35,443 bases of DNA, taken from Candidatus Zhuqueibacterota bacterium. GTDB lineage: Bacteria; Zhuqueibacterota; Zhuqueibacteria; Zhuqueibacterales; Geothermadaptataceae. This document shows, piece after piece, positions 11,891 to 33,078 of this stretch. A program made the position numbers and the translations under genes. Within the stretch, counting starts at the first letter, position 1. Each line of letters opens with the position of its first letter. The stretch spans positions 1 through 35,443 of the forward strand of contig WFTM01000282.1 in assembly GCA_015485525.1 (NCBI GenBank), written 5' to 3'. Under the pieces are notes generated by a model. It searched no databases, had not been told where the DNA came from, and saw nothing but the letters and a program-made list of their open reading frames with translations.

Positions 11891-12451
11891 TTTTCATGCT
11901 CATGCCAGAAACGATGGAAATGTTCTGACTCCTGAGATTTGAATGTCATCTGTACTTTTTGGGTGAAACACGAAGTGCACTCTGGGTATCCAGTTTACTC
12001 AGCAAACCAGGCCTGACCCAGTTTCCGACATTTGTCATTCCGGCCAGGCGAAGCGCAGTGCCGGAATCTCATCTTTTCGGGCACGTGCCGGAGTCTGGGG
12101 GGTACCGGTCTTCCGCTGTGAGGAAACCGAAATGGCGGTTCTGAGGTTGGCACGTGCCGTGCTCTAACGGGCTGGCTGAAAAAAAGCAACCAAGCTGAGT
12201 TAAATGGATAGCCAGAGAAGTGCACGATGAACTCGAAGAAAAACAAGAAGAAAGGCAGGAACTGCTGGCATTGGTTTTACGATACTTCAGCTCTCTTCGT
12301 GCGCTTCGCGAACTTCGTGGTGCAACCCGGCTTCAGCCCAAAGCTGTGAGAATGGAATAACCAGACACAATGCGGACAGATAGAGATAAAAATATCCATG
12401 ACGCCCTGACAGCAGGTACTGAAACTTGAATGGAACAATCCATTCAAACAG
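11891..12451. repeat. Second copy of the 5.9-6.25 kb composite intergenic repeat, interrupted by a MITE-like insert
   Basis: CAGAAACGATGGAAATGTTCTG...TTTGAATGTCATCTGT...GAAGTGCAC matches 5871-5943; post-insert GAAGTGCACGATGAACTCGAAGAAAAACAAG...CTTCGTGGTGCAACCCGGCTTCAGC matches 5935-6056; shared terminal 23-mer AATGGAACAATCCATTCAAACAG (6228-6250 and 12429-12451). Confidence 0.75.
11981..12216. mobile_element. MITE-like non-autonomous element, 236 bp, with TIRs and 9-bp target duplication
   Basis: Left TIR TCTGGGTATCCAGTTTACTCAGC (11981-12003); right end 12194-12216 reverse-complements to TCTGGCTATCCATTTAACTCAGC (20/23 identical). Flanked by direct repeats GAAGTGCAC at 11972-11980 and 12217-12225; the uninterrupted homologue has one GAAGTGCAC at 5935-5943. 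Confidence 0.8.
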
Positions 12452-18235: not shown

Positions 18236-19183
18236 TCACGCCGTTTTTTTCTGCGGCAGCCGCTTGCGCATGCGGATGCGGTTGCCCTTTCTGTTAAAGC
18301 TGACGCGGTCCATCAGGTTGTAGATGATGCGCAGGCCGCGACCGTAAATTTTCATCGACACACTGCCTGAAACCTCACGCTTGCGAAAGCCCGGGCCATC
18401 ATCCTCGATGCGGACATCGAGCCATTCCTCGTCACTGGCGAGAGACAGCCGGATGGTGCGCTCTGCATAGACCGGGTCGCGCAGGCGCTCGCGTTTGCGT
18501 ACCTCGAACAGCGAGACTTCCTTCCCCTCTACCTTGCCGCTCTCATCCTTCCATTCCGACAGCAGCTCGAGATTCCCGTGCTCATGAGCGTTCTGCAGCG
18601 CTTCTTCGATAGCCAGCCAGATGTTCAGCAGAGCGTCGGTCTCGAAATAGGTATAGTTCAACAAAATATCCTGCACCACCTTTTGCACCGCTTCGAGCTG
18701 AAAATCTCCGGTATGCATGACCATTTCGATCTTGAACCTCTGCACCAGCTCCGATGCAATCGAGCCTTCACGTTGCTTGTTAAAAAAATATTCCGCACGC
18801 TTGATCGTCTGCAACAGATGATCCGTATCGATCGGGCGGGACAGGCAATCGAACATGCCCAGGGAAATAGCCTCCAGGATGCGCTCGTCATAGTGCCGGC
18901 TGGCGATGAGCACAACCGGAACGGGCGGACTGAGCAAACGGCACGAGCGCAAAACCGTAAAGCCATTGTCGTAGTCTTCGAGAATATCGCAAATGACAAG
19001 GTCTGCGGCGTGGTTTCGAATCGCTTCTCTGACTTCCCGGTCGATGGCACTTCGGGCTGTGACCTCATACCCATGATGCTCCAGGATATCCCGTACTTTC
19101 GCAAGCAGGTTATCGTTTTTGTGGATCAGGAGTATTTTTTTCATCATCGCGGTTGTGCACTCTGTATGGTGACAGGATATCAA
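18236..19183 (-). CDS. Degenerate receiver + HATPase_c (SpoIIAB/RsbW-like) protein
   Basis: N-domain receiver-like (KKILLIHKNDNLL...ADLVICDILED...LSRPIDTDHL), C-domain 'IWLAIEEALQNAHEHGNLEL...VRIEDDGPGF...GRGLRIIYNLMDRVSFN'. Confidence 0.85.
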   Translation of the reverse strand: MISCHHTECTTAMMKKILLIHKNDNLLAKVRDILEHHGYEVTARSAIDREVREAIRNHAADLVICDILEDYDNGFTVLRSCRLLSPPVPVVLIASRHYDERILEAISLGMFDCLSRPIDTDHLLQTIKRAEYFFNKQREGSIASELVQRFKIEMVMHTGDFQLEAVQKVVQDILLNYTYFETDALLNIWLAIEEALQNAHEHGNLELLSEWKDESGKVEGKEVSLFEVRKRERLRDPVYAERTIRLSLASDEEWLDVRIEDDGPGFRKREVSGSVSMKIYGRGLRIIYNLMDRVSFNRKGNRIRMRKRLPQKKTA

Positions 19184-19531
19184 CTTCAGGGAAAATCAAC
19201 GGAATTTTTTCAATAGCCATGTTGCCAAACTGCTTTCTGCATCCCGGCCTGCATCATTCCTGATGCAACCCCGGTGATAAACACACATGCCAGCACTTCG
19301 CACCGCCCAACAGCCTGAAGCAGGCCCGGCGTTCTGCCTCGCCGGAGGCCGGCGTGAACAGGCACATGCGCAGAGCAGAGTCATGTACTGCGCAGATTAA
19401 TAAAATCAGGGGAAAATCGAAAGAAAAAAGTCAGAATACATCCTGCAGAGGATGAATCGGAGGATGAGCAGGGTACTGCCAAAGGGGGAGTAATAAGAGG
19501 GCGGATATCTTCCGGGGAGGTTGGCCGCAAA

Positions 19532-20440
19532 TTAAGCCGCACGCAGTGAGACGGTCTTGATCAGAGTGATTTCGTTCCCTTTTTCATTGAACAGGATTTT
19601 ATCGACCAGGTTATTGATGATCATCAGTCCCATGCCGTGCACCTCGCCGGTTGCTGCGTCGCGGATATGGCTGGTATCAAAACCATCACCCTCATCATGA
19701 AAGACGATGTGCAGCTCGGGTTTCCGATACTTCAGATCAAAATCGATGTGGCGCCCGCCATATTCAGGCGTTGCCAGGCGCTCTTTTTTGATCTTGTCAA
19801 AACGCGTGCAATAAGTTGCCTCATCAATGCACTCTTCCTTCCAGCGTGAATCCAGCTCCAGGCAGCCGTGGTCGAGGGCATTCATCCCGGCTTCTTCAAC
19901 AGCCAGCAGCAAATTGGTTTCATCATTCTGATTGCAGCCGATGTAGTTGCGCAGGACATCCTTGACCAGATTTTGCATCCCTGAAGGAGAGAAATCCCGC
20001 GCTTTGATGCTGAGATGCAGGCAAAACTCCGTAACAAATGTGCTCAGGTCCTGGTTCTCCGTACTCCCCTTTATCAGCTTGCGCGCCCGTTCGATAACGT
20101 CGAGCACCTTATCCTGATCAAAAGGTTTGATGATAAAATCAAACGCCCCTTCGCGCAACGCAGAGATAAAAATCTCATCTTCAGCATAGCCGGTCATCAG
20201 GATAAAGGGAATCTGTGGATAAACCTGCCGGCACACTCTCAGCATTTCCATCCCCGAGGTCTCATCTTCCCCCATATAGATATCCGACAGTATCAGGTCG
20301 ATGTCGTTTTCATCCTGCAGGAGCTGCAGCGCTGAGGTCGCATTATCGGCCTTGTAACTTTCGATACCATTTTTAGACAAAATCGATGTGAGCATTTTCA
20401 CTATCTGCACATCATCATCAACCACGAGAACCTTTTGCAT
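19532..20440 (-). CDS. Receiver + HATPase_c (SpoIIAB/RsbW-like) protein, canonical receiver
   Basis: REC 'KVLVVDDDVQ...DLILSDIYMG...FILMTGYAED...FIIKPFD'; HATPase 'LLLAVEEAGMNALDHGCLEL...FHDEGDGFD...GMGLMIINNLVDKILFN'. Confidence 0.88.
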   Translation of the reverse strand: MQKVLVVDDDVQIVKMLTSILSKNGIESYKADNATSALQLLQDENDIDLILSDIYMGEDETSGMEMLRVCRQVYPQIPFILMTGYAEDEIFISALREGAFDFIIKPFDQDKVLDVIERARKLIKGSTENQDLSTFVTEFCLHLSIKARDFSPSGMQNLVKDVLRNYIGCNQNDETNLLLAVEEAGMNALDHGCLELDSRWKEECIDEATYCTRFDKIKKERLATPEYGGRHIDFDLKYRKPELHIVFHDEGDGFDTSHIRDAATGEVHGMGLMIINNLVDKILFNEKGNEITLIKTVSLRAA

Positions 20441-20572
20441 CCTTTATCCTAACCCTTCTGGCTGAGCCTGAGCTCAAATTGCATGATTCTGTTACTATCC
20501 CGATTTATCCACAAACAAGTGCTGTGCAGGGCAAACCGGTAAATCCTCTTCCATATTCTGAAATCCCATGAA

Positions 20573-21439
20573 CTATTTGATCCACAGACTTTTGCCCTCT
20601 TCCGAGACATAGAACGCCGCGTTGTCGATGAAAATCGGCTGGAAATAATCATCCACACCATAGGTCGTTTCTGAGCCCCCGAGACAGAGCAGACCACTGG
20701 GATGCAATACCTTACGGATATGACCGAGGATCTGCTGCTTTGACTGCAAATCGAAATAGATCAGAACATTGCGACAAAAGACCATATCGAACTTGCCGAG
20801 ATACGTCGCGTCGGATTTCAGATTATGGGCTGAGAAGCGAGCCATATTTTTGATCACCGGTTTGACCCGCCAGGTATTGTCATCGACCTGATCGAAATAC
20901 TTGATCAGCAATTTGACCGGCATACCCCGGCTGATTTCGAGCTGGGAATAGACCCCTTCCTTGGCCTGCTGCAAAGCCGACTGGGAAATATCCGTACCCG
21001 TTATCTTCACATTCCAGCCGTTAAACAACCCGGTCTCCTGAATGATCATGGCGATGGTGTATATTTCCTGGCCGGTGGAGCTGGCAGCAGACCAGATATT
21101 CAGCGTCCGCGTCGTTGCTTTCAACTCAGCCATTTTTTTCAGAATGGTTTTCTCCAGAGCTACAAAGGGCTTACCATCGCGGAACCAGGAGGTCTCATTG
21201 GTCGTCAATGCATCGATGACCAGGGTTTCGACCTGAACATTAAAGCCTTTGCGTAATTCCTGACACAGCTCATCCATCGTGTTCAGGTTGGCAATTCGCA
21301 GGACTGTTTTCAGGCGGCTCTCGATCAGATAGCGTTTTTCTTCGCCGAGCTGGATACCGGTTTTCTTATAGAAAAACTCAGACACGAACCGCAGATCTTC
21401 AGTCGAAAGCTTCGTGGTGTTTTCTTTTGTTTCAAGCAT
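20573..21439 (-). CDS. cheR: CheR chemoreceptor methyltransferase
   Basis: 'LLIESRL...TNETSWFRD', 'LNIWSAASSTGQEIYTIAMII', 'FDMVFCRNVLIYFD', 'GLLCLGGSETTYGV'. Confidence 0.92.
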   Translation of the reverse strand: MLETKENTTKLSTEDLRFVSEFFYKKTGIQLGEEKRYLIESRLKTVLRIANLNTMDELCQELRKGFNVQVETLVIDALTTNETSWFRDGKPFVALEKTILKKMAELKATTRTLNIWSAASSTGQEIYTIAMIIQETGLFNGWNVKITGTDISQSALQQAKEGVYSQLEISRGMPVKLLIKYFDQVDDNTWRVKPVIKNMARFSAHNLKSDATYLGKFDMVFCRNVLIYFDLQSKQQILGHIRKVLHPSGLLCLGGSETTYGVDDYFQPIFIDNAAFYVSEEGKSLWIK

Positions 21440-21453
21440 GGATATCGTCTCGT

Positions 21454-22506
21454 TTAAATGATAAACTCTGATATGGTTTGATAAACCTTCTCGATCGGCA
21501 CCACTTCATCAGCAAGGCCGGCCTGCACAACGGCACCGGGCATCCCCCAAACGACACTCGTCTCAGCATCCTGAGCAATGATAGGAATTCCAGCTTCCTT
21601 CATCACCTGCATGCCACGCATCCCGTCTTCACCCATGCCGGTCAAAATGACACCAATCGCCCTCTCCCCGTAACTTTTCGCCACAGAACGAAAGAGGACG
21701 TCAACAGCCGGCCGGCAAAAGTTCTCCGGTGGTTTCTGATGCAAGTGAATTGCCTTGACACCGTTGCGCTCTGCCACTTCCATGTGATAATCCCCCGGGG
21801 CAATATAGGCATGCCCGGGCCTGACAGGCTCACCCGCACGGGCTTCATGCACAGGCATCCTTCCCACTTTGTCGAGCTGCTCCGCAAGCTTTTTCGTAAA
21901 AATGGGTGGCATGTGTTGCACGATCAGCACAGCCTGTTTCAGTTCACGCGGGAATTGGGAAAACAGCTTGTGCAGCGTGGGTGGCCCGCCTGTGCTGACA
22001 CCGATAGCGATCACATCTCTGGGCAACAGCTTCTGCATGCTTCTCTTCTGCAGCCCGGTTCCTGAGTGGTTTGCCAGGGGTTGCCGGCGCGGCATCTGTG
22101 CCTGACGGTTGCGTGTCAGCGCCTGCAACTTGGGCAACAGTTCCTCACGCATCTTGCGCATGCTCAGTTCGATCGACTGGCCACCGGACGGTTTGGTGAC
22201 AAAATCCACAGCGCCCAGTTTCAGGGCATCCAGAGTGAGCTCTGCACCTTTTTCCGTATGCGCACTGAACACCACAGATTTGATCCGGGGGTGTTTCCGG
22301 GTCAGTTCGCGCAGCGTTGCGATGCCGTCCATCTCCGGCATTTCCATATCAAGGGTCAGCATATCCGGTTGCAGCTCCGGAATTTTCATCATCGCGATGC
22401 GCCCGTTGGGTGCACTGCCCACGACCTCGATTGCCGGGTCTTCTGCCAGAACGTCCGCTATCGTCTTGCGGTACAGGGCGGAATCATCGACTACCATAAC
22501 TTTCAT
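21454..22506 (-). CDS. cheB: CheB receiver-methylesterase
   Basis: REC 'KVMVVDDSALYRK...LTLDMEMPEMDG' plus 'VIAIGVSTGGPPTLHKLFSQFP', 'VQHMPPIFTKKLAEQLD', 'GVILTGMGEDGMRGM'. Confidence 0.96.
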   Translation of the reverse strand: MKVMVVDDSALYRKTIADVLAEDPAIEVVGSAPNGRIAMMKIPELQPDMLTLDMEMPEMDGIATLRELTRKHPRIKSVVFSAHTEKGAELTLDALKLGAVDFVTKPSGGQSIELSMRKMREELLPKLQALTRNRQAQMPRRQPLANHSGTGLQKRSMQKLLPRDVIAIGVSTGGPPTLHKLFSQFPRELKQAVLIVQHMPPIFTKKLAEQLDKVGRMPVHEARAGEPVRPGHAYIAPGDYHMEVAERNGVKAIHLHQKPPENFCRPAVDVLFRSVAKSYGERAIGVILTGMGEDGMRGMQVMKEAGIPIIAQDAETSVVWGMPGAVVQAGLADEVVPIEKVYQTISEFII

Positions 22507-22539
22507 ATGCGAGCTCTTATTTTCAAGGTTCAGAAAGAG

Positions 22540-22902
22540 TTATCCGGCTACAGCATGAATTTTTTCCAGCACAACATCTGGTGTGAAGGGTTTCATGATG
22601 TATTCATCCGCACCTGCTTCGATCGCCTTGAGAATGTTCGACATCTTGTTCAGCGTCGTCAGCATGACGATTTTGGTAGATGGCGCCAAATTTTTTGTAC
22701 GCACTTCGGTGAGGAAAGTGAAACCATCCATGATCGGCATTTCCCAGTCGAGCAGGATCACGTTGATATCCTGCTGGCTGGTAACGACATCGAGGGCTTC
22801 CTGACCATTTTCCGCCTCGACGACTTTGATGCCCTCTTCCTCGAGAATATTGCGGACCATGGTGCGCACAGTCAACGAATCATCTACGGTAAGTACTTTC
22901 AT
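22540..22902 (-). CDS. CheY-like single-domain response regulator
   Basis: 120 aa 'KVLTVDDSLTVRTMVRNIL...VILLDWEMPIMDG...VMLTT...IMKPFT'. Confidence 0.93.
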   Translation of the reverse strand: MKVLTVDDSLTVRTMVRNILEEEGIKVVEAENGQEALDVVTSQQDINVILLDWEMPIMDGFTFLTEVRTKNLAPSTKIVMLTTLNKMSNILKAIEAGADEYIMKPFTPDVVLEKIHAVAG

Positions 22903-22935
22903 GTTTTGACCTTATATTATTCGTTCAATCCTGAT

Positions 22936-23166
22936 TTATCTGGTAACATACAGGGAAATATAGAGCGGGATAGCCACGTACAATATCAAATCGCGAATGA
23001 GATAATAGGTAAAAACCACTGCAAACAGTTTCCACCCTCTCTCACGAATCAACGCTTTGAACCCATCGCGTTTCACGATCAAAATACTGTCGATGATATA
23101 TTTCTTGTACAGCCGAAAAACGAATGAGGTCTTCAGCGTTGTCAGTTTGAAAACCGATGATTTCAT
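22936..23166 (-). CDS. Small (76 aa) single-TM protein of unknown function
   Basis: MKSSVFKLTTLKTSFVFRLYKKYIIDSILIVKRDGFKALIRERGWKLFAVVFTYYLIRDLILYVAIPLYISLYVTR; GGAAAGGA SD-like sequence upstream; same strand as cluster. Confidence 0.6.
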   Translation of the reverse strand: MKSSVFKLTTLKTSFVFRLYKKYIIDSILIVKRDGFKALIRERGWKLFAVVFTYYLIRDLILYVAIPLYISLYVTR

Positions 23167-23357
23167 GGATCCTTTCCGGCAATCCGGCGCGATCACCTCG
23201 TTTATCCCAGTATGTTTCCGGAATCTGTTCTGATGTCGTATGCCTAACAAACTTCACCAGCACGCTGTTTTTCCAGACAGATCAGAATTCTCCCGACAGG
23301 CCTGCCGGGGTATAGTCCCCGTCAGGCACTGCCAGTCGTCACAGTCCGTTGACAAGA

Positions 23358-25502
23358 TCAGATATTAATTTTACTGACCAGTGCATTGAGCTGACGGGAG
23401 AGGTCTGTCAGGCTTTCTGCATGGTCCTTAGTCTTCGCAGCGCCACCGGAAGTCTCGTTGGCTGCCTGCGTGACCTGAGAGATGTTCTCAACGATAGACT
23501 CAGCACCTTTGGAGGCTTCCATAACGTTGCGGGAGATGTCGTTGCTGGTTGCTGCCTGCTCTTCCACCGCAGCCGCAATGGTATTGGAAATATCGTTGAT
23601 CTTGTTGATGATCTCAGCGACCGACTCGATTGCTTCAACCGAAGCCTGGCTGTCTTTCTGGATCTTCTCGATCTTCTGGGTGATGTCTTCTGTGGCCTTG
23701 GCGGTTTCCTTCGCAAGCTCCTTGACCTCGTTGGCGACGACGGCAAAGCCCTTGCCGGCTTCACCTGCCCGCGCCGCCTCGATGGTAGCATTCAACGCCA
23801 GCAGGTTGGTTTGCTGGGCGATTGAAGTAATCACCTTGATCACATTGCTGATCTCCTGAGAACTGACGCCGAGATTACCGATGATCTGGTTGGTATCGCG
23901 GGCCACGCTCACAGCCTCATCTGCAACATTGGCTGCTTCTGCAGCGCGCTGTGCCACTTCGCGAACACCGGTGTTCATCTCTTCGATAGAGGAAGCCACG
24001 CTCGAAATATTGCGGCTCACCTGCTCACTGGCGATGGAAACGTTGTTGGCCTGCACCGAGGTTTCTTCCGCATTGCCGGCCATCTGATTACTGATATTAA
24101 CCAGCTCATCCGAAGACGCGCTCAGCTCCAGGGCCGTTTTCTCGATCGATTCCTTGACAGCCAGGTTATCCGTTACTTCATACCACTCCAGAGTATTGCC
24201 GACATAGTCGCCATTCTGGCCATACATCGCCGTCACGTTCAGGCGGAATTTGAGATCACCGACGCTGATCACCGTATTGTAGGGCAGATTGTTCGGGTCA
24301 TCGAGCAGGCGGCGCTGATGTTCCGGATTTTTGTGAAACTGGTCGATGCTCGAGCCAATGAGTTTTTCCACATCAAAACCGGGATAAATCTGCCGGAAGG
24401 CCATCTCATGCTTGCGCAGCAGATTCTTCGTGGCCGGGTTCAAATAGGTGATATTATAATCACGATCCACCATCATGATCGGCGTGGTAATACCCTCAAC
24501 CGAAGAGAACAGCCGCGCTGTTTCTTTCTGCTGGCGGATCAGCTCGCCGATCTCCTCCCAATTGACCACATAACCGACGATAGCACCGCTGTCGTTGTAA
24601 ACAGCATTGATGTTGGTCTCCAAGGTGACATTACCAAAAGAAAAGCGCGCAGCATGCGGGAACGATGCCGGATTTTTAAGAATGCGTTCGACACGGTCCG
24701 GATCGCGGTGAAAACGATGAATCGAACCACCGATGATTTCATCGACAGTGACGTTAAAGACCTGCTTGATTTCATTCTCGATCGAACGCAGAGTTTTGAC
24801 CGCTTTATCGTTCGCATAGATCAGCTTGAAATCGAGATCACCGATAAAGACGTTGGTCTGCAGGGCATCCAGTGCAGCCTTGGACATGCCGAGCACAGTA
24901 TCAGTAGCCGGCTCCGCGGCAGCGCCTTTCATCGGCTTTCTCGCCTGTGCGGTGGCCTGTTCGCTGACGACCTGCACGCCGGCATCAGTTGGATTGCTGT
25001 TTCTTGTTGCCATATCATCGTTCTCCTTTGTATAAGCGTTCAGCATTGTTGTCGAAACGGTATTGAGAGCCTCACTCCAGGCAGCCTGCACTTCATCTGT
25101 CCAGAGCTCGCCCGCAAACTCCTGCATGGTTTCCAGCAATGTGTTGGTTACAATCGGATAGTGCTCCGGCAGCACACCATAGGCCTGGTGACGCTCTCCC
25201 ATTGCTGTCAAGGCCGGCACCAGCTTATCCGGCTTGCGCAGGTTATTGACCACCAGCACAAGCGACGCCAGCAGCTTTTTGCGCTGCTCTTCCGGCGTGG
25301 TGTTGGCAAACAGAGGCTTGACCTCGGGGTGGCGCGAAAACATATTTTCATAAAAACGCGCGACCAGCTGTTCTCCTTGCGGTGCCAGGGCATTAAAGGT
25401 TTTCTCGAGTAGCTCAACCTGTAACCCCAACGGATTCGGCTTCTTCTGCCGACTACGCGGCTTCCTCGCCGTGGTTTTCTTTCCTGTTTTGACTTCCGGC
25501 AT
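23358..25502 (-). CDS. Soluble chemoreceptor: globin - PAS - PAS - MCP signalling domain
   Basis: Globin '[17 protein letters not shown]...[17 protein letters not shown]', two PAS units ([13 protein letters not shown]..., [20 protein letters not shown]), MCP tip '[37 protein letters not shown]'; no TM helix. Start at MPEVKTG (25502) preferred. Confidence 0.92.
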
Positions 25503-25989
25503 CGTGTGCTTCTCCTTGATGATAACCATTCAGCATTACCCTGGACGCTGCCTGCAAGGCTGCATTCCAGACGGATCGTATTTCGTTATTCCAGTTTTTG
25601 CCGCAAACCACCCCCATGGTATCCAGCAGTATGTCTATCGCAATCGGGTAGTGAACCGCAAGAGCGCCATAATGCTCATGCTTGCGGCCGAGCTCGAGTA
25701 GTGTAGGCACCAGGATATCTGGACGATCGAGATGCTTGACCAGATGAATCAGAGACTGCATGATCTTTGTCTGCATTTTTTTGCTGTGTTTGTTGACAAA
25801 CAGTCTCTCGACTTCAGGATATTGCGCAAAGAAACGTTCATAAAACCCCGGCACCAACTCGTCCTGTTTGCTCAGCAGCTCTTTCAGGTTCTCCAGAAGC
25901 AACTCTTTTCCCCGCGTGCCGATCTGCATGAATTTCCCCAGTTCCCCCGGGAAGCTGTTTGGTGTACTCTCCGGCGGCTGTGTCGTCAT
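25453..25989 (-). CDS. Single-domain globin (flavohaemoglobin-like type)
   Basis: '[17 protein letters not shown]...[26 protein letters not shown]...[11 protein letters not shown]'; start MTTQPPES at 25989. Confidence 0.85.
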
Positions 25990-25994
25990 ACTCT

Positions 25995-26423
25995 TTACCC
26001 TGTCTTTCCCCCCCGATATGCCATAATCATTATTTTTGCCCCATCCAGCAGGGCATGGTGCCACGCAGCCCTGACCTGTTCGTTCCAATAGCGGCCGCAG
26101 AAAACCGCAAGGACATCCAGCATCACCTCGATCATCTGGTTGTAATACACTGCCTTGACACCCATCTGCCCGTGCTGCCGGCCCAGGCGAGCAAGAGAGG
26201 TACGAAGCTTTTGAGGTTCACTGGCATATTTCACCACATTGACAAGCGCCCGTGCCATCTGCTTTTTCCGGGCATCAGCATTACCCTTCTTGAATAAGCC
26301 GGCATATTCCGGGTGGCGGCGGAAGAACTCTTCGTAAAAGGCATCAACCACATCGCTGAAATTATCTTCGATAACCGAAAAACTGTTTTGCAAGAGTCTC
26401 TCTTCATTGCTGCCCAGAAGCAT
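25995..26423 (-). CDS. Single-domain globin, more divergent
   Basis: 'AFYEEFFRRHPEYAGLF...LGRQHGQMGVKAVYYNQMIEVMLDVLAVFCGRYWNEQVRAAWHHAL'. Confidence 0.82.
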   Translation of the reverse strand: MLLGSNEERLLQNSFSVIEDNFSDVVDAFYEEFFRRHPEYAGLFKKGNADARKKQMARALVNVVKYASEPQKLRTSLARLGRQHGQMGVKAVYYNQMIEVMLDVLAVFCGRYWNEQVRAAWHHALLDGAKIMIMAYRGGKTG

Positions 26424-26469
26424 GGTCTTCTCTCAGGCCTTTCTCAGCGGTTGCGGTTATCAGCAGACT

Positions 26470-26955
26470 TTACTCCTGCCGGTTATCGAGAATACGCTCG
26501 ACATCAAGCACCATGAGCAGCTCATCATCGAGCTTGCAGACGCCCTTGAGATACTCGATGTGGATGGATTTGATCGTCGGCGGCACCGGCGCCATCAAGT
26601 GCTTATCCACTTCGATGACATCACCGATTTCATCCACCAGCAAGCTCACTGTGCCATCACCGGTGTTGACCACCAGATTGTTGCTGTCCGTGCTCGCCGC
26701 ATCCGGGCGGTTCGTCAGCCGGCGGCCCAGGTCGATCGCTGTGACGATCTGGCCCCGCAGGTTGATCAGTCCGGATACATAGTCCGGAGCCAGCGGTACC
26801 GGTGTCATCTCCTGGCCGAGCAGAATTTCCTGCACACGCAGGACATCCACACCGAAAAATTCGCCTTCGAGGCGGAACGTGGCATATTGAATCTTGCCCT
26901 CATCCGTCTCAAACTGATATGTATCTTGCTCCAATCCTGTCATTTCAAACCTCAC
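26470..26955 (-). CDS. cheW: CheW coupling protein
   Basis: 'QYATFRLEGEFFGVDVLRVQEILLGQEMTPVPLAPDYVSGLINLRGQIVTAIDLGRRL'. Confidence 0.94.
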   Translation of the reverse strand: MRFEMTGLEQDTYQFETDEGKIQYATFRLEGEFFGVDVLRVQEILLGQEMTPVPLAPDYVSGLINLRGQIVTAIDLGRRLTNRPDAASTDSNNLVVNTGDGTVSLLVDEIGDVIEVDKHLMAPVPPTIKSIHIEYLKGVCKLDDELLMVLDVERILDNRQE

Positions 26956-26990
26956 TGCTGTTCAATTTCCGGCGTCCATTGTCATCCCCA

Positions 26991-29795
26991 TCAGGCGGCT
27001 ACGGATTGCGCTTCCTCCAGCAGGCGCTGGATTGAGCTGAGAATCTCCTCGCGGTTCAGCTTGATCAGGTAATCATCGATGCCGATCTCCTGGCTGGCCT
27101 GGATCTTCTCCGGATCGTTCAGACTCGATACTGCGATGATCGGAATATGTCCGAATTTTTTGTTCGCCCTGATATTTCGTCCGAGCTCAAGCCCGTCCAT
27201 CTTCGGCATTTCGACATCCGTGATGATGAAATCGACATCCTCGGAGGATAGTTTTTCCAGGGCATCTTCGCCGTCCCGCGCTTCGACGACCTGATAACCG
27301 ACCGACTCCAGATAGGCCCGGTGTGTCGCGCGGATAAAATGGGAATCATCGACGACCAGAATACGCGGCCGGGTGCGGACGATGTCCTCACCCTTGCGGT
27401 TAAACCATTCCGGGAACTCTGCCTGTATGATCCTGAACGCATCGACGAGCAGGGTAATTTTGCCATCGATGATGATCGTGCCGAGGATACCGGTTTGCTG
27501 CAGGGCTGAACTGTTGACCTTCTCACTCGTTTCGATAACATCGAGAATCTCATTGACGACAAAGCCGACGTCATTATTGTCAACGGTAAACGTGAGTACG
27601 GAAATGGTCTCGCTCTGTGGCATCGGCCGGATAGGCAGGTGATTTTCCAGACGCAGAAGCGGCATGATCGTGCCGCGGTACTGGATCACTTCGCGGTTGC
27701 CAGCCTGCTCAACAGCCGAGGCAGGGAAGGTTTCCAGACGTGAAACCAGAGACAGGGGCAGAGCATATTGATCTTCATCTGCGACGGAGAAAAGCAGCAG
27801 CGTGTGGCTATACTCATCACTGAGGTCTGTGCCCTCCTTATGGTCAGCAAAAGACTGGTTCTTTTCCAGAGCCACGCGTGCCGTTTCAGCAAGGCCAACC
27901 ACATCGAGGATCAGCGCGACCTTGCCGTCGCCCATGACCGTGGCGCCGGCAAAACTGCCGATTTCCTTCAGGTGCTTGTCCAGCGGCTTGACGACGATCT
28001 CCTCTGTGTCGTGAATCAGGTCCACGACCAGGCCGAACTGGGTATCGTCAGCGCCGAGCACGACGATATTCACTGTGTCGCCGGGGGTATCGTCATCATC
28101 CTCGAGCTGCAGGATGTTTTTCAGCCGGATGATCGGCAACAGCTTGCCGCGCAGCCGGTAAATCTCCGCATCACCCATATTCTCGATGGCGTTGACGTCC
28201 TCGCCTTCGAGACTGACCAGCTCGAGCAGATTGATCTGCGGAATGGCAAAGCGTTGTGAGCCGGCGGTCACAACCAGGGCCGGAATAATTGCCAGGGTCA
28301 GAGGGATTTTGATCTTCACCGTCGTGCCCTTGCCCTGAGTACTGATGATCTCAACCGTGCCCCCGATTTTTTCGATATTGGTTTTGACCACATCCATCCC
28401 CACGCCGCGGCCGGAGATGTTCGTAACTTTTTCTGCTGTGGAAAACCCGGCGCGGAAAATCATGTTGATGGCGTCGCGGTCACTGAGATTCTTTGCCTGA
28501 TCAAAAGAGAGCAAGCCACGTTCGACCGCTTTGTTGCGAATCTTTTCCGGATCGATGCCTCGGCCATCATCGATAATTTCGATATTGACCTGTCCCCCTT
28601 CGTGATAGGCACGCAGAATGAGCGTGCCCTGAGCGTCTTTTTTCAGATTCGTGCGCGTTTCCGGGTCTTCCAGGCCATGATCGATGGCATTGCGCACCAG
28701 GTGTGTCAACGGGTCGCGAATTCCCTCGATGATAGTCTTGTCCAGCTCTGTCTCCTGCCCTTCGATTTTCAGGGCAACGCGTTTACCCGTATCACGGGCG
28801 ACATCGCGGACCACGCGCGGGAAGCGGTTGAACACATTGCCGATCGGCTGCATGCGTGTCTTCATCACGCTTTCCTGCAGTTCGCTGGTGACCAGGTTGA
28901 GGCGTTGCGTCGTGGCATGAAAGTTGGCGTTTTCCTGCGAGGTGGAAAACTGTACGATCTGATTGCGCGCCAGCACCAGTTCACCGACCAGGTTCATCAT
29001 CTTATCCAGCAAGCCGACATCGACCCGGATCGCTGACTCCGCCTTGTTCCACTTCGAGCCGACATCTGTTTTTTGCGTCGAACCGTTATTCTTTGCTTCT
29101 CCCTGCTGAGTCGGTGTTGTGTTCCCGGACTGAGGGGGGGCAGTGTCCGCGGCTGCGGCCGGCTGCTGGCCCGGTTTGGAGATGTTCTCTGTAAAAAGTC
29201 CCCAGCTGCCATCTTCGGCAACGATCTCCTCAGGCTGCGCGCCCGACGGTGCCCCCGCGTTGGGTTGGTTTTCCGGGAAAAGCCCCCAGCTGCCATCTTC
29301 AGCGACGATTTCATCCGGAACAGCGCCATCAGCGGCCGGTGCATTTTTCTTCGCATCTGCGGCCTGCTCAGTATCTGGTTGCTCTGTACGATCCGTGGCA
29401 GGTGCAGTCGCTTCCCTGGGCACAACCACAGGGGCCTGGGGACTTTCAATTTCCTCACCGGCATCGGTTTCATGCTCCTCGATCGCCTCATGGAGAACTT
29501 TCAGACGATCCAGTGAGTCGAGAAGAAAGGTGATAATATCCGCGGAAATCTCGATTTTACCATCCCGGATATCGGTGAGAATTTCTTCGGTCACATGGGC
29601 GATCTTTTCGAACTTTTTCATGCCGACCAAACCGGCATTCCCTTTCAATGTGTGGAATGCGCGAAAAATCTCGTCGAACAAAGCCTTATTGTCCGGCTCG
29701 TTCTCAAATTTCACAATCGCCTGATCGAGCAGGTCGATATAATCACGGCTCTCCTCGATAAAAATCTGAATCAGATCATCGTGCTGGCCCATCAA
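26991..29795 (-). CDS. cheA: Hybrid CheA: Hpt - linker - dimerisation - HATPase - CheW - CheW-like - REC
   Basis: Hpt 'RAFHTLKGNAGLVG', 'LLDKMMNLVGELVLARNQ', 'HLVRNAIDHGLE', 'ISGRGVGMDVVKTNI', two CheW-like segments, terminal REC 'RILVVDDSHFIRA...FIITDVEMPKMDG'. Confidence 0.94.
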   Translation of the reverse strand: MMGQHDDLIQIFIEESRDYIDLLDQAIVKFENEPDNKALFDEIFRAFHTLKGNAGLVGMKKFEKIAHVTEEILTDIRDGKIEISADIITFLLDSLDRLKVLHEAIEEHETDAGEEIESPQAPVVVPREATAPATDRTEQPDTEQAADAKKNAPAADGAVPDEIVAEDGSWGLFPENQPNAGAPSGAQPEEIVAEDGSWGLFTENISKPGQQPAAAADTAPPQSGNTTPTQQGEAKNNGSTQKTDVGSKWNKAESAIRVDVGLLDKMMNLVGELVLARNQIVQFSTSQENANFHATTQRLNLVTSELQESVMKTRMQPIGNVFNRFPRVVRDVARDTGKRVALKIEGQETELDKTIIEGIRDPLTHLVRNAIDHGLEDPETRTNLKKDAQGTLILRAYHEGGQVNIEIIDDGRGIDPEKIRNKAVERGLLSFDQAKNLSDRDAINMIFRAGFSTAEKVTNISGRGVGMDVVKTNIEKIGGTVEIISTQGKGTTVKIKIPLTLAIIPALVVTAGSQRFAIPQINLLELVSLEGEDVNAIENMGDAEIYRLRGKLLPIIRLKNILQLEDDDDTPGDTVNIVVLGADDTQFGLVVDLIHDTEEIVVKPLDKHLKEIGSFAGATVMGDGKVALILDVVGLAETARVALEKNQSFADHKEGTDLSDEYSHTLLLFSVADEDQYALPLSLVSRLETFPASAVEQAGNREVIQYRGTIMPLLRLENHLPIRPMPQSETISVLTFTVDNNDVGFVVNEILDVIETSEKVNSSALQQTGILGTIIIDGKITLLVDAFRIIQAEFPEWFNRKGEDIVRTRPRILVVDDSHFIRATHRAYLESVGYQVVEARDGEDALEKLSSEDVDFIITDVEMPKMDGLELGRNIRANKKFGHIPIIAVSSLNDPEKIQASQEIGIDDYLIKLNREEILSSIQRLLEEAQSVAA
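29184..29315 (-). repeat. Duplicated 48-bp coding repeat in the CheA linker
   Basis: Copies at 29184-29231 and 29268-29315 encode EEIVAEDGSWGLFTEN and DEIVAEDGSWGLFPEN. Confidence 0.85.
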
Positions 29796-29825
29796 CGTCT
29801 CCTTCTTTCCTTGAACAAAACAGGT

Positions 29826-30203
29826 CTAATTTGCGAGCTTCTTGACGACTTCGAGAATCTGCTCGGGCTGAAACGGCTTAACCAGCCATCCGGACGCACC
29901 CGCGGAACGGCCTTCCTGCTTCTTTGTATCCTGAGATTCCGTCGTCAAAACCAGAACCGGCGTATCTTTGAAACGACCTTGTTTGACATTGCGCGTAAAT
30001 GTGATGCCGTCCATAACCGGCATATTGACATCCGTGATGATCATCGAAACCTGATCACCCGAATTGGCGAGGTGCTCCAGTTTCGATAACCCGTCCGAGC
30101 CATCTGTTGCCAGAGCAACATCGTATCCGGCTTGTTTGAGGACGAATTCTACTGAAGAGCGTGTTGTCGCAGAGTCATCAACGACCAGGATTACTTTTCC
30201 CAT
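29826..30203 (-). CDS. CheY-like single-domain response regulator
   Basis: 'VILVVDDSATTRSSVEFVLKQAGYDV...MIITDVNMPVMDG...LVLTTES...LVKPFQ'. Confidence 0.93.
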   Translation of the reverse strand: MGKVILVVDDSATTRSSVEFVLKQAGYDVALATDGSDGLSKLEHLANSGDQVSMIITDVNMPVMDGITFTRNVKQGRFKDTPVLVLTTESQDTKKQEGRSAGASGWLVKPFQPEQILEVVKKLAN

Positions 30204-30372
30204 TTACCTACCCTACTGTTTTGAATGAGACCAACATAATCTGAAAAATTCATACTTCGTGAAATTTCTCAGTTACACCGCTGTGCGCGAGGCGCACGTT
30301 TAGAATAAAGCGGGATATTCAGAACACTGCATCCACCTGACACTTCAGGCCATATCACCATCCGGCAACGGC

Positions 30373-30675
30373 TCAGGCAAGCTTGAACAGCTTGTCGAGA
30401 TGAATGGATTCAAACAGCGTTTTCAGGCTCTCGTGGATTCCTTCGATGCGAAACTCACGGTTCTGGGCATTCACCTTGCGATACAGCGAGATCAGCTTGC
30501 CGATTCCGGAACTGGTGATCGTCGGCACGTAAGTGAGATCGATGACCACTTGTTTTTCATTGGATTGCTGCAAGCGCGCGAATGCTTCCTTCAGCGATGA
30601 GGCATCAGAGTCTGCTATGGGGCCGACAAGTTTGGCACGAATCGCGTCGCCGGCATTTGTGATCGTCACATCCAT
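30373..30675 (-). CDS. STAS-domain protein (anti-sigma factor antagonist-like)
   Basis: 100 aa 'KQVVIDLTYVPTITSSGIGKLISLYRKVNAQNREFRIEGIHESLKTLFESIHLDKLFKL'. Confidence 0.85.
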   Translation of the reverse strand: MDVTITNAGDAIRAKLVGPIADSDASSLKEAFARLQQSNEKQVVIDLTYVPTITSSGIGKLISLYRKVNAQNREFRIEGIHESLKTLFESIHLDKLFKLA

Positions 30676-30785
30676 CTTATCTTCCTTCCATTATTTTCAT
30701 TTACCCCGATTCTGCATGAATTAACGCTTCGAAAAAGGACAGCAGGCTGGCCGTTTTTTATATTTGGCCATACCATCCCCCCTTA

Positions 30786-31118
30786 TCAGATTACTGGTAT
30801 CGTCGCTTTCTTCTTAATTTTAACCAGCTTATCGAAGTGAATCGACAACAGCAGTGCGTACAGGGAATCATGGACCCCGTGCACTTCGAGAGTTTTGTGC
30901 TGGTCTTTCAGCAGCCGCTGGTACTTCATGATAACGCCCAAACCTGCGCTGCAGATATTGGGAACATACTCCAGGGCCAGGGCGACCTTTCTGACCTTCT
31001 GACCGAGTACTTCACGAAACGCTGTCTCCAGTTTCGCGATTTCCCCATCATTGACCGATCCACTGAGCATGATATAGGCATACTCATCTGTGCTCACCGT
31101 TGAAATTTCCATATACAC
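30786..31118 (-). CDS. STAS-domain protein, paralogue
   Basis: 110 aa 'KVALALEYVPNICSAGLGVIMKYQRLLKDQHKTLEVHGVHDSLYALLLSIHFDKLVKI'. Confidence 0.82.
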   Translation of the reverse strand: MYMEISTVSTDEYAYIMLSGSVNDGEIAKLETAFREVLGQKVRKVALALEYVPNICSAGLGVIMKYQRLLKDQHKTLEVHGVHDSLYALLLSIHFDKLVKIKKKATIPVI

Positions 31119-31191
31119 TCTACTCCGATCTTAGCCACTAACTCCGATCACGCTTGCATTATCGACCTGTAGCGGACGATGTTGGAGCTGA

Positions 31192-33078
31192 TTAAAATAA
31201 CGTCAACTCTCCACTCGCATCGCCTTCTTCGATATCCACGTCATAAATTTCGCTGGCAATCTCTTTATCTGAATAAACCGTAAATTTGGAAATCATGCGC
31301 ATAAAACCGGGGAACCGTTCGGGGATCACCGGACTGAGAAACTCCGTAAAGCCCATCTGATGGCCCTGTACGCGGAATTCTTCACTTTGGGAGATAATCT
31401 GGCCATACTGGCGCGAGATCGATTCTGCCTGGCCGATCAGCCCTTTGATCGTGCGCGCACCGTTGAGAGAATCTTCGATCAGGGCAAACAACTCTGTAGA
31501 ATTTGCACCAACAGCACGGATGGCATCGTTGAGATTTTCGCGCATGGTTTCCAGGTTGCTGACAGACTGTTCCATATTATGAGTCAGGGCAGCAACGTCA
31601 TCCTGCTGCTGAGCCAGGTTGGCCGACAGCGTCATCAGATTTTCACGAATGGAAACATCCGCTGTGTGCAGTTGTTTGCGTACCTGCAGAATGGTTGTCT
31701 CCATTTTCTCAGTCAGCTCTTCGAACATTTCGGAAGAGGCTGTGATGTTGCGCGACAGTTCCATCTCCCGGGCAATCTCCATCTTGGATGCAACCTTGAT
31801 CAGAGAAAACCCCTTGACGATATCATGCATCTCATCAAAACAGCGGATGGTTTTTTCCATATTATCGATCAGCAGCGTTCCCAGCTTACTGGCTTCACGC
31901 TTCTGGACGATGGAATTCCTGATAAACTGCAACAAGTCGGTGATCATCTCGCTGGACTCATCGAAGATCATTTCTATACTGCTCTTATTGCCCAGCCCTT
32001 CCTGTGCATTAGCGAAAAAATCGACCAGGGATTTGCGATCTTCCTCAACATCGCGAAGCTGTTGTTCAAACTCACCCAGGTCTGAGCTGAGCTTGTGCAG
32101 GGACTCATCGAGGTTCTGGGTAATCTTGCCGATGAGCTCGTTGGCCAGTTTGGACATCAGGATCGTCAGCGCACTGGTTCCCTCCATCATCGAGGTATCC
32201 ACCTCATCGACACGCTGATTGCTGTACAGGCGCAGGTTCGATTCGAGCTGCTGTACCATATCCAGGTTAATCGAAGAAGCCTGCTCAAGAGACTGACGGA
32301 TGATATCCTGGTCCTGCAGGGAAATCATGATCTTGGGGACATATTGCTTGATGGAGTTCACGCTGTCGAGATTTTCCATCAGCAGACCAGCGATATTTTT
32401 AAGGCCGGTGTTGTACTTATTGAAGATCGAACCGAGATGATCTTCGATGTTATTCAGGCGCTCATCTGTTTCAGTATTGATCTTCTCGATTCGCTCGTTG
32501 AACTGACGATAGCTTTCGACGAGCTCTTCGGTATTGCGCCGCATACGCTCGACCAGGCTGGTCGTGCGGTTGGAGAGCTTTTTTATCTCCCTCGCGATAT
32601 AGGTAAAAGCAGCTCCGGACGAACCCGCCCGGCTGGCGACAAAGCCTGCGTTGTAGGACAGCAGTTCGATATCATCAGATATCAGGGCAATCTCTGAGAT
32701 CGAATCCCGGATTTCGCTCATCTGACCAACCTGCTCTTCGATTTGCTGAAACAGCTCCTTGTCATCTGTGCGCATCAGGCGCATCGAAGAAGCGGCGTCA
32801 CTTAGTTTCACCTGCACATCTTTGAGCTCCTCACTGACCACGCTGTCCTGGTTCAGCTCGGAATCGCCGGAGATGAAATAGGAAACCAGAACGCGTGACT
32901 CATCATTATTGCTCTCGATCGTTTCCATGATCGCCGGCAACTGTTCAGCGATGCGCTCATAAACATCCGCAGTATAGATCTGCAGCTTCTGCAAAACATT
33001 TTCGCAGCTCATCGTCTCAGAACGGACCGTATCGAGATAATTTCGGAATTCTTCCCGGAGTGACTGCAGTTGATTCAA
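31192..33078 (-). CDS. Soluble divergent MCP-like coiled-coil protein
   Basis: 628 aa, no TM; hairpin-like region 'ISEIALISDDIELLSYNAGFVASRAGSSGAAFTYIAREIKKLSNRTTSLVERM' resembles the MCP tip. Confidence 0.7.
   Translation of the reverse strand: MNQLQSLREEFRNYLDTVRSETMSCENVLQKLQIYTADVYERIAEQLPAIMETIESNNDESRVLVSYFISGDSELNQDSVVSEELKDVQVKLSDAASSMRLMRTDDKELFQQIEEQVGQMSEIRDSISEIALISDDIELLSYNAGFVASRAGSSGAAFTYIAREIKKLSNRTTSLVERMRRNTEELVESYRQFNERIEKINTETDERLNNIEDHLGSIFNKYNTGLKNIAGLLMENLDSVNSIKQYVPKIMISLQDQDIIRQSLEQASSINLDMVQQLESNLRLYSNQRVDEVDTSMMEGTSALTILMSKLANELIGKITQNLDESLHKLSSDLGEFEQQLRDVEEDRKSLVDFFANAQEGLGNKSSIEMIFDESSEMITDLLQFIRNSIVQKREASKLGTLLIDNMEKTIRCFDEMHDIVKGFSLIKVASKMEIAREMELSRNITASSEMFEELTEKMETTILQVRKQLHTADVSIRENLMTLSANLAQQQDDVAALTHNMEQSVSNLETMRENLNDAIRAVGANSTELFALIEDSLNGARTIKGLIGQAESISRQYGQIISQSEEFRVQGHQMGFTEFLSPVIPERFPGFMRMISKFTVYSDKEIASEIYDVDIEEGDASGELTLF

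Follow-up and report, generated by a model that had tools for sequence, protein, structure and literature searches.

In the present study, we analysed contig C282, part of the 4.55-Mb draft genome of a marine Calditrichota bacterium (a metagenome-assembled genome); the whole stretch, hereafter the window, is 35,443 nucleotides long. Between positions 18236 and 33078, it carried a cluster combining chemosensory (Che) genes with genes for STAS and REC-HATPase proteins. The cluster consisted of 14 co-oriented genes and one doubtful small open reading frame (ORF), all on the minus strand, and was flanked by two plus-strand genes, an M3 peptidase gene on one side and a glpD-like gene on the other. 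Along the minus strand, the gene order was solMCP, STAS1, STAS2, CheY1, CheA, CheW, globin 1, globin 2, the globin-PAS-PAS-MCP receptor, CheY2, CheB, CheR, REC-HATPase B and REC-HATPase A. The individual features were as follows:

31192..33078, minus strand: solMCP, a sensorless soluble MCP-like protein of 628 aa with a degenerate hairpin tip and a C-terminal G(E/D)L(T/V)LF tail (Pfam MCPsignal 4.4e-11, three-way alignment, structure model)
30786..31118, minus strand: STAS1, with Ala (CSAG) at the SpoIIAA-type Ser58 position (Pfam and NCBIfam matches, alignment)
30373..30675, minus strand: STAS2, which keeps TSSG (Pfam, structure comparison, alignment)
29826..30203, minus strand: CheY1, an intact receiver (Pfam, residue alignment)
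26991..29795, minus strand: CheA, with Hpt, dimerisation domain, HATPase_c, CheW, CheW and a C-terminal REC (Pfam, tree)
26470..26955, minus strand: CheW (Pfam)
25995..26423, minus strand: globin 1, a flavohaemoglobin-like single domain (Pfam and further family matches)
25453..25989, minus strand: globin 2, a flavohaemoglobin-like single domain, start revised from 26088 (Pfam and further family matches)
23358..25529, minus strand: the soluble receptor, with a flavohaemoglobin-like globin, two Aer2-like PAS-haem domains and an MCP signalling domain (family and structure matches)
22936..23250, minus strand: the doubtful small ORF (no family match, weak constraint, genus-only)
22540..22902, minus strand: CheY2, an intact receiver (Pfam, residue alignment)
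21454..22506, minus strand: CheB (Pfam)
20573..21439, minus strand: CheR (Pfam)
19532..20440, minus strand: REC-HATPase B, with an intact receiver and an RsbW/SpoIIAB-type GHKL domain (Pfam, structure comparison, residue alignment)
18236..19147, minus strand: REC-HATPase A, with a degenerate receiver and intact GHKL motifs, start revised from 19183 (Pfam, residue alignment)

The first-pass annotation had described fifteen co-oriented genes, fourteen of which were retained. The remaining ORF gave no family match in the Pfam search; it occupies part of the 455 bp that separate the globin receptor from CheY2, possibly contains a membrane helix, and was conserved within the genus only, under weak constraint. 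The proposed Che core (CheA, CheW, CheR, CheB and two CheY) was borne out by Pfam matches above the curated cut-offs, as were the three globin domains, the PAS-PAS-MCP receptor and the two REC-HATPase proteins of the SpoIIAB/RsbW type, whose HATPase_c_2 matches reached 1.6e-16 and 7.5e-15. Both proposed STAS proteins were also recovered: STAS2 scored above the Pfam cut-off, and STAS1 fell just under it (21.9 vs 22.6 bits) with a TIGR00377 match of 2.7e-7. The second of the two soluble receptors, solMCP, was the weaker MCP-like protein by Pfam, and no strong hydrophobic segment was found in either receptor. Comparison with the nearest relative indicated purifying selection on all 14 main genes, with an approximate ratio of non-synonymous to synonymous substitution (dN/dS) of 0.00-0.34. 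The true start of REC-HATPase A is probably at 19144-19147, and that of globin 2 probably at about 25989.

A partner switch requires a GHKL Ser/Thr kinase of the RsbW/SpoIIAB type and a STAS antagonist with a phosphorylatable Ser or Thr. Judged by its residues, the cluster appears to provide both. The alignment revealed that the N, G1 and G2 motifs of the GHKL domain were kept in all REC-HATPase homologues. The closest solved full-length REC-HATPase was Leptospira LvrC, for which we know of no chemosensory context. In STAS2, the TSSG motif aligned with the DSSG motif of SpoIIAA, so that the Ser58 position was kept, and Ser or Thr occupied it in the orthologues; STAS2 is thus the candidate antagonist. 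Its closest solved structures were TM1442 and SpoIIAA (structure models were built from 3-4 sequences), and a STAS2 orthologue was present in every relative cluster read. STAS1 carries Ala at the SpoIIAA-type serine position, and among the loci read this second STAS copy was limited to the genus of the window. STAS1 may be phosphorylated on the neighbouring Ser, because TM1442, the nearest solved STAS structure, likewise has Ser-Ala in the SpoIIAA Ser58 region. The earlier proposal that the STAS and RsbW-like proteins form a partner-switch pair was therefore supported for the two kinases and STAS2, and not for STAS1, which lacks the SpoIIAA-type serine.

It had also been proposed that CheA phosphorylates both REC-HATPases directly. 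The receiver of REC-HATPase B kept the acidic pair, Asp, Thr and Lys, and phosphorylation by CheA is plausible for this copy. The receiver of REC-HATPase A had lost the acidic pair and the Lys, and both copies were degenerate in genus g2 even with an intact CheA; this half of the proposal was not supported. Intact receivers were otherwise found in CheY1, CheY2, CheB and a REC-PP2C protein encoded elsewhere in the genome.

The window itself encodes kinase and antagonist and no phosphatase. In two relatives (G032 and G031), a REC-PP2C (REC-SpoIIE) gene directly followed the REC-HATPase gene, and the window's genome encodes an orthologue of the G032 protein on contig C158 (E 2e-124). The receiver of the C158 protein was intact, as in nearly all copies read (two were truncated or poorly aligned at the N-terminus). 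With this orthologue alongside the REC-HATPase and STAS proteins of the cluster, the window's genome holds the full triad of kinase, antagonist and phosphatase. At another locus of this genome (L103:736-3667), RsbW-like, REC-SpoIIE-like and CheR-like proteins were joined. Genome G011 carried a che-free triad in which the STAS2 orthologue lay between the REC-PP2C and REC-HATPase genes. Next to the STAS/REC-HATPase pair of G011 (L056:7720-12914), genes for an MCP-like and a REC-PAS protein came after it.

To evaluate conservation, we read the related loci and sampled 82 genomes of the phylum, for which the co-occurrence p-values are naive hypergeometric values that ignore shared ancestry. The order solMCP-STAS-CheY-CheA-CheW-PAS-MCP-CheY-CheB-CheR-REC-HATPase was shared by G003, from a second genus, and by G032, from another family, in line with the expectation that the STAS and HATPase genes are conserved with the che genes. 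The G003 cluster had a PAS-PAS-MCP receptor without globin and two REC-HATPases; that of G032 had a globin-PAS receptor, one STAS and one REC-HATPase, followed by the REC-SpoIIE protein. The start of the same operon was seen in G035. REC-HATPase occurred in 10 of the 82 genomes and REC-PP2C in 12, with 9 in common (p about 7e-9); the exception was G001, which is 67% complete. The solMCP gene was present in 7 of the 82, six of which also had REC-HATPase (p 4e-6). A scan with solMCP patterns recovered five Calditrichota-type loci and one weak deltaproteobacterial match, and the named carriers among Calditrichota-type metagenome-assembled genomes were HyVt-473, Calditrichaeota CLD5, Dive96_bin3.88 and KSB1 OFTM177. 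In a plasmid search, STAS2 gave no match and REC-HATPase B gave weak matches only, mostly driven by the receiver.

In one genome, G036, the two halves were also lost together. There, a deletion scar (L136:3727-4620) fused solMCP, cut off at about residue 228, with the final third of CheR, starting near residue 197, and the operon between them was gone; neither REC-HATPase nor REC-PP2C was detected in this genome at the thresholds used. In G002, the CheA (L035:2-1849) lacked HATPase_c and its Hpt histidine was changed from H to R, so it is apparently a dead kinase; it lay beside STAS, CheY and two REC-HATPases, both with degenerate receivers. Little of the che core remained in G031, where the REC-HATPase had lost its REC. 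The REC-HATPase receiver of the che-free G011 locus was degenerate. Because relatives gain, lose and keep both halves together, the chemosensory and switch halves probably work as one pathway.

On the input side, the receptor globin was closest to bacterial flavohaemoglobin-like globins, Vitreoscilla haemoglobin and flavohaemoglobins. A HemAT-type globin-coupled sensor was considered and rejected, as the best matches were flavohaemoglobin-like or Vitreoscilla-type and the receptor's protoglobin match was below the cut-off. The PAS pair matched Aer2 (NF041847, 3.1e-94; PDB 6ceq, 2.9e-27), and FHxxP and Trp were kept in both copies. By this His and Trp signature of Aer2 PAS-haem domains, both are predicted to bind haem. 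Since G003 keeps the PAS pair without the globin, PAS-haem sensing is the input common to all intact clusters. The signal is likely oxygen, to go by these domains, and may instead be nitric oxide (NO) or redox state. The solMCP model was all-helical with a disordered tail, and the G(E/D)L(T/V)LF motif of this tail is possibly a docking motif or a tether for CheR/CheB. A weak NCBIfam match linked solMCP to Borrelia BB0569.

CheA proteins with two CheW domains have been described as nearly confined to class F5. The CheA of the window has two CheW domains and a C-terminal REC, and in a small tree it grouped with the two-CheW CheA proteins of the alphaproteobacteria Azospirillum and Rhodovastum; the cheA-cheW-cheY-cheB-cheR order was the same as in the Azospirillum plasmid che operon. 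The operon thus looks F5-like, an assignment made from domains, gene order and the small tree rather than from formal class models.

The first-pass annotation had taken the lack of flagellar genes in the window as a sign of non-motility output. This argument was rejected: the genome is flagellated, as the check for FliM showed, and in family f4 the cluster adjoins a flagellar che/FliM locus. Both observations fit an operon that mainly serves flagellar or surface motility through CheY1 and CheY2, its STAS/HATPase part merely tuning sensitivity or array composition. The two intact CheY proteins, the full set of adaptation enzymes and the flagellar genes near the Azospirillum operon point the same way. 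Against this, a cheA/cheB/cheR/cheY locus linked to the flagellum is present separately on contig C239 of this genome, and the G011 triad exists without a che core. We therefore regard a mainly motile role as quite unlikely.

Taken together, the cluster is rather probably an oxygen/redox-sensing chemosensory operon whose output runs through a partner switch of split proteins. The wiring has good support from the genome comparisons; from the genes and residues described above, we infer the following signal direction, ligand, phosphotransfer, STAS phosphorylation and target. The soluble receptor, with its globin and two Aer2-like PAS-haem domains, would control CheA via CheW, and CheR and CheB would provide adaptation. 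CheA would pass phosphate to receivers, the likely targets being REC-HATPase B and the REC-PP2C encoded elsewhere in the genome, while CheY1, CheY2 and the REC of CheA itself could also receive phosphate, as targets or as sinks. How far STAS2 is phosphorylated on its Ser/Thr would depend on how kinase and phosphatase are balanced. In its unphosphorylated form, STAS2 would bind a REC-HATPase and free the client of that protein (a sigma factor, an FlgM-like or another protein), or would itself act on a target. In this reading, REC-HATPase A and STAS1 are later duplicates without ordinary signal input, and are probably constitutive or scaffold partners. Tentatively, and with some doubt, the cluster could represent a class of chemosensory system dedicated to controlling genes or cell state. 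In it, a cytoplasmic array rich in haem, made of the globin and dual PAS-haem receptor plus the sensorless receptor-like protein with its conserved LTLF tail, would phosphorylate separate kinase and phosphatase receivers and thereby set STAS phosphorylation, and one kinase copy would have become a pseudo-receiver that sets a fixed baseline.

Several observations weigh against a chemosensory operon with partner-switch output. The intact clusters all fall within two families. In G003, CheA is intact, yet both REC-HATPase receivers are degenerate, and CheA is not expected to act through them for that reason. REC-PP2C lies outside the operon in family f1 and could serve another histidine kinase; close to the C158 copy is a fragment that looked, on reading by eye, like a hybrid kinase. 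No sigma factor or other client was linked to the cluster, which leaves the sigma-factor step of the earlier proposal unsupported; with 16 Sigma70_r2 matches and numerous further RsbW and RsbU genes in this genome, the target cannot be named. The G003 receivers and the unlinked REC-PP2C, together with the switch standing alone in G011, are what would be expected if the modules shared an operon by history only, with no signal flow between them. We consider this very unlikely, since the order is conserved over two families, both halves were lost jointly in G036, and the receivers decayed where CheA is dead or missing (G002, G031).

A further observation on the same side comes from rhizobial che operons, in which the STAS-only protein CheS is encoded near cheY1 and cheA; in Sinorhizobium meliloti, CheS binds to CheA and changes which CheY is selected (PMC12654446). 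The same order was seen on a Rhizobium plasmid with a small CheS-like ORF, a gene resembling CheY1 and then cheA, the CheS identity being assigned by eye and position. By analogy, STAS2 could be a CheS-like CheA accessory that binds CheA and directs phosphate between CheY1 and CheY2, with the REC-HATPases as a separate output sharing the operon. However, the Rhizobium ORF has no phosphorylatable serine, whereas Ser or Thr is retained there in STAS2 and its orthologues; the STAS2 orthologue lies between REC-PP2C and REC-HATPase without a che core in G011 and persists beside the dead CheA in G002; and the CheA of the Rhizobium operons belongs to a different clade. A CheS-like role for STAS2 is accordingly unlikely, and phosphorylation of STAS2 within a partner switch remains our preferred reading.

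Apart from these genes, positions 12065-12217 of the window held a copy of an interspersed repeat of about 150 bp found in many other contigs of the same genome, and its RNA folding energy was not unusual. Repeats in the operon gaps had no match to the other loci read.

Comparison with known systems indicated that the concept is already known, from Shewanella che1/crsRA and from CheS beside cheY-cheA, and that the system in the window is a split, haem-rich variant of it. CheS, in contrast to the role proposed for STAS2, acts on CheA/CheY1. Besides Che proteins, the che1 locus of Shewanella oneidensis encodes CrsR, CrsA and two receptors, one of them Aer2; a CrsR-CrsA partner switch on RpoS has been shown, and its control by Che1 has been proposed (PMC9855816, PMC6482189). 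Both loci combine CheA, CheW, CheY, CheR, CheB and an Aer2-type receptor with a kinase/anti-sigma protein linked to REC and with a STAS antagonist. CrsR carries REC, PP2C and HATPase in one protein, whereas here there are two REC-HATPases and a separate REC-PP2C; the CheA with two CheW domains and REC, the added globins, the lack of a CheD in the window and the absence of a known RpoS link also differ. The HptB-HsbR-HsbA system of Pseudomonas aeruginosa, linked to RpoS, FlgM/FliA and cyclic di-GMP (c-di-GMP), resembles the model proposed here in its receiver-controlled STAS phosphorylation by opposing PP2C and kinase activities (PMC6482189). Its input comes through hybrid kinases and HptB rather than from a chemosensory array, and HsbR, like CrsR, fuses REC, PP2C and kinase in one protein. 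In Nostoc punctiforme, chemotaxis-like Hmp and partner-switch HmpU-W systems act on the same process; passages of that report describe HmpU-W as a separate system with the STAS protein HmpV as output and state no direct wiring to the Che-like system (PMC6495340). Leptospira LvrC (PDB 9qih, which the sequence file names SenB) matched at 2e-20 in sequence and at E 1e-21 in fold, with about 25% identity. The receptor resembles Aer2 of Vibrio cholerae and P. aeruginosa in its PAS-haem domains with FHxxP on an MCP-type receptor, and differs in its additional N-terminal flavohaemoglobin-like globin. For Shewanella too, the driving of a partner switch by a chemosensory array, Che1 acting on CrsR-CrsA, stands as a proposal. 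A differently built version in a distant phylum, in which CheA is of another type, kinase and phosphatase are separate proteins and genes were lost jointly, offers independent comparative support for such wiring.

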